Shown here piece by piece: positions 26,763 through 57,219 of a stretch of 64,000 nt of DNA (position 1 is its first letter; every line of letters begins with the position of its first letter). Both the position numbers and the translations under genes were made by a program. The notes under the pieces were generated by a model. That model was given only the letters and a program-made list of their open reading frames with translations, was not told where the DNA came from and made no database searches. Origin of the DNA: Gammaproteobacteria bacterium. GTDB taxonomy: Bacteria; Pseudomonadota; Gammaproteobacteria; Burkholderiales; Sulfuricellaceae. The stretch spans positions 62,001 through 126,000 of the forward strand of contig JAHJGO010000003.1 in NCBI GenBank assembly GCA_018824405.1, written 5' to 3'.

Positions 26763-28076
26763 TCAGTCGCTTGAACCGGCTTCTTTTAGCTTGCGGTACA
26801 GGGTGCGCTCGCTCATTCCCAGCTTGTCGGCCAGAGCTTTGCGGTCGCCACTGAAATTTTTTGCTGCCCATGCGAGGTAGCGCCTTTCCATTAGTTCGAG
26901 AGAGATCAATTCTTCAAAGGGTGGAGCTGGAGAAACCCCGCTCTTGCCGCTTTTCATGTTGCCGAGGTGGATATGCTGGGGCAGGATGGTATTGCCATCC
27001 ACCATGATCAGCGCACGCTCCAGAATGTTGCGCAATTCCCGAATATTCCCGGGAAAGTCGTGATGCATCAGGGCCGTCATGCTCTCTTCTGCGAGCGAGA
27101 TTTTCCTTCCCGGTGCCAATCGCGATAGCAGGCGCTTTACCAATGTTGGCAGATCTTCGATTCGTTCCCGTAGCGGCGGCAACTCGATGGGAAAAACATT
27201 GAGACGGAAGTAAAGGTCCTGCCGGAAGCTGCCTTCCTGAACCATTTCAGCCAAATCGCGGTGAGTGGCGGCAATCAGCCGGAAATCCGCACTCAGCGGC
27301 TCCACGCCGCCGATGCGGCGGTAGGTGCCCGCTTCCAGCAGACGCAGCAGTTTGACCTGTAGCGACAGGGGGATATCGCCCACCTCGTCGAGGAAAAGCG
27401 TGCCGCCGTGCGCTGCTTCCACCAGACCGATCTTGCGTCCGATGGCGCCGGTGAAAGCGCCTTTTTCGTAGCCGAACATCTCGCTCTCGAACAGAGTTTC
27501 TGTCAGGCCGGAGCATTCCACCGCTACGAATGGAGCTGCCGCACGCGGGCTCATGTCGTGGATGGCTTGTGCCACCAGTTCTTTTCCGGTGCCGGACTCT
27601 CCCAGCAGCAGCACCGAGCTTTCTCTTGTGGCGACTCGCTTGGCCAGTTCCAGCATGCGATTGAACGAGCGGGAGTAACCTACCAGATTGCGGTCATGGG
27701 CGCCGTCATGGGCATGACGCAGGACGTGCATGGTTTCCATGAAGTAGGTCGTTTTCCCGGTCTTATCCTTGACCGGCACCATCTCCACTTCCACATGCTC
27801 CCTTCCCGCCGAAGTATGGTGCACGTGGAGTACTCGGTTGGGTTCGCCGCTTTCCATGGCGCCTTTTAGCGGGCAGTTCTCGCCTGCCTGGTCGCAGGGC
27901 TTGTCGTAATGGTGGGAAAGCTCGTAACAGAAACGCCCGTCAATTTTCCGTTCCGTGCCGAATTCGCGCCGGTAGGCTGCATTGGCGGCGAGGATGCGAT
28001 AGTTCTCGTCCAGCAGAATTTTTGGTTCCGGGAAGCTGTCGAGTAGGGTGATCAGCTCGGAGGGGACTTTATTCAT
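26763..28076 (-). CDS. PAS-containing sigma-54 activator, Fis-type HTH
   Basis: A 437-residue enhancer-binding protein. Residues ~10-115 form a PAS domain with an unusual cysteine set (C50, C61, C68 in [15 protein letters not shown] and NCPL) that could bind a metal, cluster or haem. The AAA+ domain follows with Walker A GESGTGKE (159-166), the sigma-54-contact loop GAFTGA (206-211) and Walker B TLFLDE (226-231). The C-terminal ~40 residues are a Fis-type helix-turn-helix. There is no receiver domain, so the PAS probably senses the signal directly. The frame is open upstream, but the ATG at 28076 fits the domain start. Divergently, a consensus sigma-54 promoter lies at 28220-28235, its obvious candidate target. 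Confidence 0.92.
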
Positions 28077-28082
28077 TGTGCG

Positions 28083-28130
28083 TATGCCACATATGGCAGT
28101 TAATATTGGCATATAGTGACAAAACTGACA
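28083..28130. promoter_or_regulatory. Candidate upstream activator site for the sigma-54 activator
   Basis: TGCCA-CATA-TGGCA (28085-28098) is a perfect palindrome, and a further TGGCATA at 28107-28113 repeats its right arm in the same orientation (TATGCCA at 28083 is its inverse). Two TGACA boxes follow at 28117 and 28126. The group is about 110-135 bp upstream of the -24 element, a usual distance for enhancer-binding proteins, and only 7 bp from the activator's start codon, so autoregulation is also possible. Confidence 0.55.
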
Positions 28131-28219: not shown

Positions 28220-28235
28220 TGGCACGGGGATTGCT
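28220..28235 (+). promoter_or_regulatory. Sigma-54 (-24/-12) promoter
   Basis: TGGCACG at 28220-28226, four bases, then TTGCT at 28231-28235 match the sigma-54 consensus TGGCACG-N4-TTGCW at every defined position. Transcription would start near 28246. A sigma-54 activator gene lies divergently upstream. Confidence 0.85.
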
Positions 28236-28245
28236 TAGTAATAAT

Positions 28246-28351
28246 CGCTGATTAACCGGGACGCAAGTAGTGTCGGTTAAACTCCTCCCTGATGGACACA
28301 CCCCCGTCCGTCAGCCTGCCCTGTGGCGCCAAGCGCCACAGGATTTTTTTT
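28246..28351 (+). ncRNA. Predicted sigma-54-dependent small RNA, ~106 nt
   Basis: From the predicted start after the sigma-54 promoter, the transcript folds into three hairpins: TTAACCG/CGGTTAA (28252-28258 with 28274-28280), CTGATGGAC/GTCCGTCAG with one G-U pair (28289-28297 with 28306-28314), and the terminator. The stretch ACTCCTCC (28281-28288) between hairpins 1 and 2 and the ACACCCCC loop of hairpin 2 are single-stranded and pyrimidine-rich, complementary to Shine-Dalgarno sequences. No ORF is apparent. Known sigma-54 small RNAs (Qrr, GlmY, CrcZ, NrsZ) set a precedent, but the sequence matches none I recognise. Alternative: a 5' leader with an attenuator for the hydrolase at 28436. Confidence 0.65.
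28320..28351 (+). terminator. Intrinsic terminator of the predicted small RNA
   Basis: CCTGTGGCGC and GCGCCACAGG form a perfect 10-bp stem with a CAA loop, followed by A and eight T (28344-28351). It ends 84 bp before the next start codon. Confidence 0.92.
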
Positions 28352-28435
28352 GTAGTAGTCTGTCCGGCTTGATCAATCAAAGCGAAAAGGTTTTAGCTGG
28401 CAAGCCGCACAGCGGCGGCTCGCAAAATACTGATC

Positions 28436-29326
28436 ATGCCCTTTTCCGATGAAATTTTCGGCGTAGTGAATCTATTTCTGCTTCTGCTTGGGTGCGGGTT
28501 ATTCATTGCGGTTTTTCACGCCCTGATTCGCTGGAGCCTGCGTGCGCCCCGAGTGAAGGAACAATCAACACCAGAGACGGCAGGCCTGGCATTCAAGGAA
28601 ATGCGAATTTCAAGCGCCAATGGCAAACGGCTTTTCGCCTGGTTTATTCCGGCGCCAGAGCCGGGTGCAGCGCCAGCGCTGGCAGTATTGCATGGGTGGG
28701 GAGGCAATGCAGAAACGATGCTTCCGCTTGCTGCACCCTTGCATCGAGCCGGCTACGCGCTGCTGTTTTTCGATGCCCGCAGTCATGGTCAGAGCGATCT
28801 GGACACTTTTTCTTCCATGCCCCGTTTTGCCGAGGATCTCGACCATGTTGCGGGATGGCTCAAATGTCAGCCGGGCGTGGACCCGCAGCGGGTAGGGCTG
28901 GTCGGCCATTCCGTGGGGGCGGCCGCAGCCCTGCTTGCCGCCTCGCGCCGGGACGATCTGGCGGCTGTGGTCAGCATCGCCGCCTTTGCGCATCCCGAGA
29001 CGGTCATGCGCCGTTTGCTTGCCACATGGCGCGTGCCTTACATTCCTTTGGGCTGGTATATCCTGCGTTATGTTCAGCACGTGATCGGCTATCGTTTCGA
29101 TGACATCGCGCCATTCAACACCATAGGGCGCGTACGCTGCCCGGTCTTGCTAGTTCATGGCGTTGAGGATGTGACTGTACCAGTGGCTGAAGCGCAGGCA
29201 TTGCACGCTAGATGCAACCGGTCCGGCAGGCTGCTTCTGGTAAAGGGGAGTCATGATCTTTACGATGATCTGGAGCGCCAGATTGGCGAAATGATCGGTT
29301 TTCTTGATGAAGCCATGAAGACGTAA
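28436..29326 (+). CDS. Membrane-anchored alpha/beta hydrolase
   Basis: A 296-residue protein with one N-terminal membrane segment (~8-30) and an alpha/beta-hydrolase fold. The nucleophile elbow GHSVG is at 157-161 (Ser159); likely acid and base lie in HGVEDVTVP and GSHDLYDD near the C-terminus, and HGWGGN (86-91) fits the oxyanion region. Substrate is unknown; esterase or peptidase activity is possible. It is 84 bp downstream of the sigma-54 small-RNA terminator, so read-through could place it under sigma-54 control. The GST-family gene follows 29 bp later. Confidence 0.85.
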   Translation: MPFSDEIFGVVNLFLLLLGCGLFIAVFHALIRWSLRAPRVKEQSTPETAGLAFKEMRISSANGKRLFAWFIPAPEPGAAPALAVLHGWGGNAETMLPLAAPLHRAGYALLFFDARSHGQSDLDTFSSMPRFAEDLDHVAGWLKCQPGVDPQRVGLVGHSVGAAAALLAASRRDDLAAVVSIAAFAHPETVMRRLLATWRVPYIPLGWYILRYVQHVIGYRFDDIAPFNTIGRVRCPVLLVHGVEDVTVPVAEAQALHARCNRSGRLLLVKGSHDLYDDLERQIGEMIGFLDEAMKT

Positions 29327-30063: not shown

Positions 30064-30113
30064 ACTTCTTGCCATAAGCGGGAATGAGTCGAACCGAAAT
30101 AATGGAGCCAAGC

Positions 30114-30536
30114 ATGATGCAGCGAAAACAGGCCGTTAAAATTCTTTTTGTGATTATCGGGCTCGGATTGATTTACTGGTTCGGCTTGCGAACCGATCCG
30201 GCGGTACAGGCCCTGAATCAGGCAATTCAGGGCAAGGGTAGCTCTGAGTTGCGAAACTATCCCTATGCGTTCAGGGTGTTGCGTCTGGATAAAGAGGTGG
30301 CGGTCATGGTCACGCCGCGCTCCCCGGAAGTGCCGGTCTATCGCATGATCGCTGCACTTTATCCAAACCTTGCGGGAAAGGCGCCAAATGATCCCGATTT
30401 CACCGCTGCGCAAAAGGAGCTGGCTCAGGTGCAGTCAGAAGCGCGCCAGATTGTGCTCGACCAGCCCGGTGTGTCCAGCGTGAAATGGGAACTGGATCGG
30501 AACTGGCTGATAGCGCATGGAATTTCACTCAATTGA
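30114..30536 (+). CDS. Small membrane-anchored protein, function unknown
   Basis: A 140-residue protein with a single N-terminal membrane segment (KILFVIIGLGLIYWFGL) followed by a soluble domain rich in Ala, Gln and Pro. The frame is open from 30084, but the ATG at 30114 follows GGAG at the best distance. I do not recognise a family. It is downstream of the hydrolase-GST pair on the same strand and 89 bp upstream of the SLAC1-type gene. Confidence 0.68.
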   Translation: MMQRKQAVKILFVIIGLGLIYWFGLRTDPAVQALNQAIQGKGSSELRNYPYAFRVLRLDKEVAVMVTPRSPEVPVYRMIAALYPNLAGKAPNDPDFTAAQKELAQVQSEARQIVLDQPGVSSVKWELDRNWLIAHGISLN

Positions 30537-57128: not shown

Positions 57129-57219
57129 GGAGAGGTGGATGAGTGGTTTAAGTCGCACGCCTGGAAAGCGTGTTTAGGATAATATCCTAACGCGGGTTCG
57201 AATCCCGCCCTCTCCGCCA
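57129..57219 (+). tRNA. tRNA-Ser (anticodon GGA)
   Basis: A 91-nt type II tRNA. The acceptor stem GGAGAGG pairs with CCTCTCC, the anticodon stem CACGC/GCGTG encloses the loop CTGGAAA with anticodon GGA at 57163-57165, a long variable arm (TAGGATAATATCCTA) is present, the T-arm CGGGTTCGAATCCCG is standard and CCA is encoded (57217-57219). An integrase remnant pointing at its 3' end indicates former use as an attachment site. Confidence 0.96.

Follow-up and report, generated by a model that had tools for sequence, protein, structure and literature searches.

The window analysed here, a 64-kb stretch of DNA (G000:C19:62001-126000) from a genome of 3.03 Mb, contains a sigma-54 (-24/-12) promoter, TGGCACGGGGATTGCT, at 28220-28235 on the plus strand, which was recognised by pattern match and is kept in relatives. 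On the same strand it is followed by a predicted small RNA of ~105 nt (28246-28350), delineated by its fold, by covariance models R1 and R2 and by covariation; its ends are predictions, with the 5' end placed 12 nt past the -12 element and the 3' end within the U tract. The RNA is composed, all on the plus strand, of hairpin 1 (28252-28280), which is variable in sequence but keeps its pairing, a single-stranded linker, ACUCCUCC (28281-28288), hairpin 2 (28289-28314) with the C-rich loop ACACCCCC, and hairpin 3, which together with the U tract forms an intrinsic terminator (28320-28351), as judged from its stem and its conservation. Counts of C-rich motifs mark the linker and the loop as two candidate anti-Shine-Dalgarno seeds. 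Divergently, on the minus strand, lies the gene for a one-component, FisR-like sigma-54 activator (26763-28076), and an alpha/beta hydrolase gene is found downstream of the RNA (28436-29326). Elsewhere in the window, a tRNA gene at 57129-57216 is the only above-threshold Rfam match.

The site TGGCACGGGGATTGCT is the sole match to TGGCAYN5TTGCW in the window, and at least one such match arose in 23 of 100 shuffles of the window used as a control. Taken by itself, the promoter match is weak evidence. The genome encodes rpoN (PF04552, E 6.1e-67). Folding of the region 28240-28355 yields three hairpins with an energy of -46.4 kcal/mol (z -4.89), a stability that none of 200 shuffles equalled. The terminator has a 10-pair stem (28320-28342) followed by a T run, and the stem of hairpin 3 is also well conserved in sequence. 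No Rfam family matches the RNA at its gathering score, and a search at E 10 likewise gave none. The absence of an ORF asserted in the preliminary description holds in the sense that coding is unlikely: three short frames start within the RNA and all extend beyond the terminator, the start codon of the sole ATG frame (28292; 26 codons) is not kept in three aligned relatives, and the RNA length varies across these relatives (103-106 nt) by differences that are not multiples of three. Together with the comparisons below, these features make it very probable that 28246-28350 is a sigma-54-driven RNA.

Conservation and covariation of the RNA in relatives

A blastn search of 61 genomes matched four, the window's own and three of the same genus; because blastn reached no further than these, covariance models were built. 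Among 22 genomes sampled from the family, five further members of the genus have orthologues of the activator (77-87% over the N-terminus), and all six Sulfuricellaceae loci, window included, combine the promoter with an RNA laid out in the same way. In two of these relatives, G005 and G006, hairpins 1 and 3 differ largely in sequence and retain their pairing. In genome G002 the covariance model found no RNA and the activator match is distant only; genome G007 gave no blastn match, and its activators are all more distant (51% and 38%).

Model R1, made from four RNAs of one genus with the promoter excluded, was searched against 399 genomes of the order. Its matches outside the family at E 1.4e-5 or better are five loci, spread over four genomes and all in the Gallionellaceae; a sigma-54-type site lies upstream of all five, four with TGG and one with TAG. 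Twenty weaker loci (L077-L095 and L097; E <=0.1) were judged to be terminators or chance matches. The consensus site is present in none; a loose TGG-N8-10-TGC occurs within 90 bases upstream in four of the 20.

Model R2 was built from 11 sequences, including the five strong R1 loci and again without the promoter, and was run on 150 Gallionellaceae genomes at E <=0.01. It gave 22 matches in 20 genomes, from which 21 loci in 19 genomes were accepted. All accepted loci score at least 58.9 bits and have a sigma-54-type site 15-29 nt ahead of the model start (21/21, with a promoter pattern that was widened after the TAG variant had been seen in L072). Sixteen of the 21 were absent from the R2 training set, and each of these has the promoter site. 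The weakest Gallionellaceae match (L118, in G545; E 0.006, 29.6 bits) lacks the promoter and was not accepted. In the order sample, R2 matched 11 of 398 genomes, and the matches in G183 and G341 were judged false since the promoter site is absent. The R2 matches without a site (L118, L078 and L080) were set aside at 29-33 bits, versus at least 58.9 for the accepted loci. In the class sample, the single genome matched out of 369 was the window's own. No convincing copy was found in other families among the 398 order and 369 class genomes sampled, a result that may miss rarer or diverged copies because the large searches used strict filters and sampled genomes. The families with the RNA are the Sulfuricellaceae (Sulfuricella and Sulfurimicrobium) and the Gallionellaceae (Sideroxydans, Sideroxyarcus and Gallionella).

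The structure was assessed on an alignment of 27 copies (A6) fitted to the model structure, for which reason its absolute figures lean towards that structure. In A6, 91.4% of cells are paired and 19 of 28 base pairs have changed on both sides, giving 102 such cells; on none of five measures did any of 500 shuffles reach the observed values, and a control in which the partners were slid by 1-3 columns paired 33.6-38.6% of cells, as opposed to 91.4%. In hairpin 1, every counted pair (10/10) shows change on both sides. An 11-sequence alignment (A4) behaves like A6. For the first four sequences (A1), pair counts were no better than in shuffles, 246 to 377 of 500 of which reached the observed value, and a MAFFT alignment (A2) was dropped because hairpin 2 of G005 and G006 was misaligned.

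These comparisons bear out most of what the preliminary description had put forward. The sigma-54 promoter proposed there corresponds to the site at 28220-28235, and a sigma-54-type site is present at all 21 accepted Gallionellaceae copies and all six Sulfuricellaceae loci; the compact three-hairpin RNA with its terminator is supported by the fold, the 10-pair stem, the T run and covariation. Conservation in related genomes, named there as a test, is seen as promoter plus hairpins in six Sulfuricellaceae and 19 Gallionellaceae genomes. Of the checks suggested, the Infernal/Rfam search returned no Rfam family and our own models recovered copies with the promoter, and the search for compensatory changes found strong covariation over the 27 copies. 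We also considered that a chance promoter match might stand beside an ordinary terminator with no small RNA at all. Such a promoter match alone is not rare, and the weak model matches in other families do resemble terminators or chance; however, the covariation, the promoter at independently found copies and the segregation with the activator described below largely refute this reading by comparison, leaving it hardly credible.

The next gene downstream is not constant. It is the hydrolase in the window and, as seen by eye, in three relatives, a NifX-like gene in G005 and aat in G006 (by eye), and in Gallionellaceae YfhL ferredoxin and CcoG are among the next genes. Two genomes, G171 and G468, carry second RNA copies distant from the activator; that of G171 (L072 / L099:5038-5139) follows an rplQ-like gene and has a promoter of the variant form TAGCAC, with no activator in the 10 kb read there. 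The varying downstream gene and the second copies in two genomes make a self-contained small RNA likely. One might instead regard the RNA as the 5' leader of a downstream operon, with hairpin 3 as an attenuator allowing partial read-through under sigma-54 control. The next gene is co-oriented in the window, G005 and G006, a sigma-70 consensus scan (a type of scan that misses promoters) lists nothing between the terminator and the hydrolase, and read-through is conceivable because next to FisR paralogues, too, sigma-54 promoters precede hydrolase- or NifX-like genes. Yet the RNA stays while the downstream gene changes, a difference between relatives that disfavours a leader function, 98.9% of the cells of the terminator stem remain paired across the 27 copies, and the second copies are located elsewhere. 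We therefore consider a leader improbable and retain the self-contained small RNA. Two observations on neighbouring genes may be added. In G005, a look-alike of the window hydrolase, next to a FisR paralogue, is preceded by a sigma-54 promoter (L021). A small ORF in the window at 30084-30536 (WFGLRTDP...) has look-alikes, seen by eye, near the FisR paralogues L012 and L023 and also near the RNA copies L104, L106 and L110; the one tested (L104:1963-2379) matched no Pfam family.

The divergent activator and its association with the RNA

The activator has the domain order PAS_4, sigma-54 AAA+ (Sigma54_activat) and Fis-type HTH (HTH_8) in Pfam, a set common to many other sigma-54 activators, with cysteines at positions 50, 61 and 68. 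In a scan of the named genomes, the best 80 of 130 PAS-domain relatives were kept. Within these best 80 of 130, the RNA is present at all 19 of the closest activator loci (at least 69% identity; 59.9-105.2 bits) versus none of the remaining 61 (at most 58% identity) at E 0.01, counts in which relatives are not independent events and which include genomes already used and RNAs in the model. In the Gallionellaceae sample, a close activator orthologue occurs in 16 genomes and the RNA in 16 of these 16, and a divergent activator adjoins 16 of the 21 accepted RNA loci. Three genomes (G462, G474 and G509) have the RNA and no activator match at E 1e-40. The RNA, the promoter and the upstream repeat are kept at L107, L116 and L117, in three genomes that show no close activator orthologue.

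Upstream of the promoter, by 135 bp, lies an inverted repeat, TGCCACATATGGCA (28085-28098), that recurs upstream of the RNA in relatives and is a candidate activator-binding (enhancer) site; a second, weaker inverted repeat, TTGGCATATAGTGACAA (28106-28122), was picked by eye and is partly conserved. The pattern TGYCAN4TGGCR, at 9 or more of its 10 defined bases, is found in all 22 activator-RNA intergenic regions versus 0.18 of 22 on average when the bases were shuffled, a count that shows recurrence and is not an independent test since the pattern was derived from the same regions. Exact matches to the upstream repeat occur at three places in the window's own genome, one being the RNA locus. 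A one-mismatch scan of this genome as a guide to a regulon was discarded as too unspecific (92 matches versus 46 for the backwards control).

By comparison, then, the RNA structure, promoter, terminator, upstream repeat and association with the activator are conserved. The circuit of activator and small RNA that had been suggested for the locus gains from the segregation with the activator orthologue (19/19 versus 0/61), and the best reading remains a small RNA that depends on sigma-54 and is encoded next to its likely activator, a reading to which covariation, promoter, upstream repeat and segregation all contribute.

The candidate signal

Cys50, Cys61 and Cys68 are invariant in 44 of 44 PAS domains, from 22 orthologues and 22 paralogues. 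The Cupriavidus FisR cysteines, which we take to be C53, C64 and C71, would have an 11/7 spacing equal to that of the activator here. The activator is predicted to be of the FisR (persulfide-sensing) type, a point that was missed in the earlier reading of this DNA and that points to a signal. FisR is described, in passages of three sources, as a sigma-54 activator divergent from the sqr/pdo operon (PMC7315123; PMC12170894; PMC9239190). According to passages of one of them, FisR activates this sigma-54 operon, cysteines of the regulatory domain matter in Cupriavidus FisR, and A. baumannii FisR responds to sulfide despite missing these cysteines (PMC7315123), so that the link between cysteines and sulfur sensing is not a strict one.

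The 3-kb flanks of the paralogues contain listed marker-like genes at 46 of 61 loci: CydA-like at 28, dioxygenase-like at 12, NifX-like at 11, BLH-SQR-like at 10, SQR-like at four and PhsA-like at two. Names of the SQR-, dioxygenase-, CydA- and PhsA-like genes denote best NCBIfam matches below curated cut-offs. NifX-like genes, which are no sulfur marker, also occur at 8 of 19 orthologue loci; with these excluded, CydA-, dioxygenase-, SQR- or PhsA-like genes adjoin 40 of 61 paralogue versus 0 of 19 orthologue loci. The CydA-like count suggests bd oxidase as a common FisR output, and the FisR-type paralogues at L141, L143, L158 and L167 are divergent from cytochrome bd oxidase-like genes. The window's own genome has a second FisR-type activator (L024; G000:C24 near 212322), with a sigma-54 promoter and an SQR-like gene in divergent orientation to it; the best NCBIfam match of that gene is SQR_III, below cut-off. 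On a Cupriavidus metallidurans megaplasmid, a FisR-like gene is present and no sqr/pdo was recognised by eye among the ORFs listed.

The activator being FisR-like, we take reactive sulfur as the most plausible signal for it and, on homology, as the likely one. The circuit may be right and the activator nonetheless be driven by something else, such as oxygen, nitric oxide, another thiol oxidant or a metal; the sulfur signal comes from homology and neighbours alone, and the sulfide response of A. baumannii FisR without the Cupriavidus cysteines, as given in passages of PMC7315123, also leaves room for this. Against it stand the three invariant cysteines and the sulfide-linked genes adjoining relatives of the activator, and we judge a different signal possible but rather unlikely. 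With reactive sulfur as the presumed signal, a FisR-family sensor would here have switched from governing a sulfide-detoxification operon, its usual output, to governing a small RNA, giving the Sulfuricellaceae and Gallionellaceae their own sulfur-stress RNA that reshapes translation as persulfides rise; we see the case for this proposal as evenly balanced.

Putative mode of action and known systems

Of the 27 copies, 23 have CUCC or CCUC in the aligned linker, 22 have CUCC or CCCC in the loop of hairpin 2, and 20 have a C-rich motif in both. Computed unpaired probabilities are 0.70-1.0 for the loop motifs and more variable, 0.26-1.0, for the linker motifs. Two copies, L076 and L115, have the motif in neither aligned linker nor loop and contain CCUCCC within the part aligned as hairpin 1. 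In LhrC of Listeria, as described in passages of PMC4132741, the ribosome-binding site is covered by CUCCC motifs that lie in loops and in a single-stranded stretch; this action makes a similar one plausible here, and by analogy an anti-Shine-Dalgarno role of the linker and loop motifs is plausible. LhrC and other UCCC small RNAs differ in being Gram-positive and two-component induced; the RNA described here has candidate seeds only and no Rfam match. The genome contains hfq.

A target search with GGGAGGAG-N3-12-ATG in four genomes gave 36 matches, 30 of which were read, and yielded no convincing shared target; with this one crude pattern, the only similar pair shares 41% over 66 residues. On balance, we lean slightly towards pairing of the RNA in trans with ribosome-binding sites. 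If the RNA instead bound a protein as a decoy, as CrcZ does for Hfq, and not mRNAs, the conservation of hairpins 2 and 3 in sequence, beyond pairing, would be in keeping. However, the GGA of hairpin 2 is paired with UCC, unlike the usual CsrA sites, and the one or two motifs per RNA would seem few for titration; a decoy is quite improbable. A CsrA sponge was also set aside.

In the mechanism that we infer, 28246-28350 would encode a small RNA belonging to a new family, self-contained and ended by its terminator, which sigma-54 RNA polymerase would transcribe once the divergent activator is switched on. The activator would bind the inverted repeats located ~100-135 bp upstream of the promoter (at two loci, 240 and 309 bp) and act as a FisR-like sensor whose three PAS cysteines probably react with sulfane sulfur (persulfide or polysulfide). 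The RNA would then probably act in trans, its C-rich linker and loop pairing with ribosome-binding regions of mRNAs and lowering translation, at times of reactive-sulfur exposure and perhaps with Hfq. As a whole, this explanation, namely a new small RNA family, sigma-54, a FisR-like sensor and probable trans action, is in our view the probable one. The RNA family, covariance-supported and absent from Rfam, could enter Rfam. In a full-text search, with sources available as abstracts and passages, we recognised, among the papers listed, no description of a small RNA under a reactive-sulfur sensor, and the circuit, if true, would be the first of its kind as far as that search reaches. Its hosts are chemolithotrophs living on reduced sulfur and iron, and sensor and RNA are encoded side by side, which makes the circuit testable in a simple reporter.

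Among known sigma-54 small RNAs, Qrr and GlmY/GlmZ have sigma-54 promoters, as does the RNA here, and are activated by LuxO and GlrR; the RNA here matches no Rfam family. Rhodobacter CcsR and SorX/SorY are C-rich stress RNAs. SorY, the best sub-threshold Rfam match, reaches 16.4 of the 111 bits needed and SorX 11.7 of 46.6, and the RNA is a member of neither; no Rfam family was matched, and any resemblance to alphaproteobacterial RNAs is no more than analogy. NrsZ and CrcZ of Pseudomonas are, in passages of PMC8395346, RpoN-dependent small RNAs adjoining the activator genes ntrC and cbrB, as is predicted of the RNA here and its activator. They need two-component response regulators, measure ~226 and 407 nt and follow nitrogen or carbon signals. 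They are set apart by these descriptions and by the absence of any Rfam family match here; relative to them, the present circuit, if true, would extend the sigma-54 small RNAs to one driven by a one-component activator. In Pseudomonas stutzeri, NfiS is sigma-54-dependent and NfiR NtrC-dependent according to passages of PMC6606865, and their link to nitrogen fixation sets them apart by description. FisR of Cupriavidus pinatubonensis and A. baumannii, on passages of PMC7315123, shares with the activator here N-terminal regulatory, AAA+ and DNA-binding domains, a likeness drawn from descriptions; the published outputs considered are protein operons (sqr, pdo), in contrast to the small RNA here. 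The A. baumannii FisR is also encoded divergently from its own sigma-54 operon (PMC7315123), the same arrangement as at this locus.
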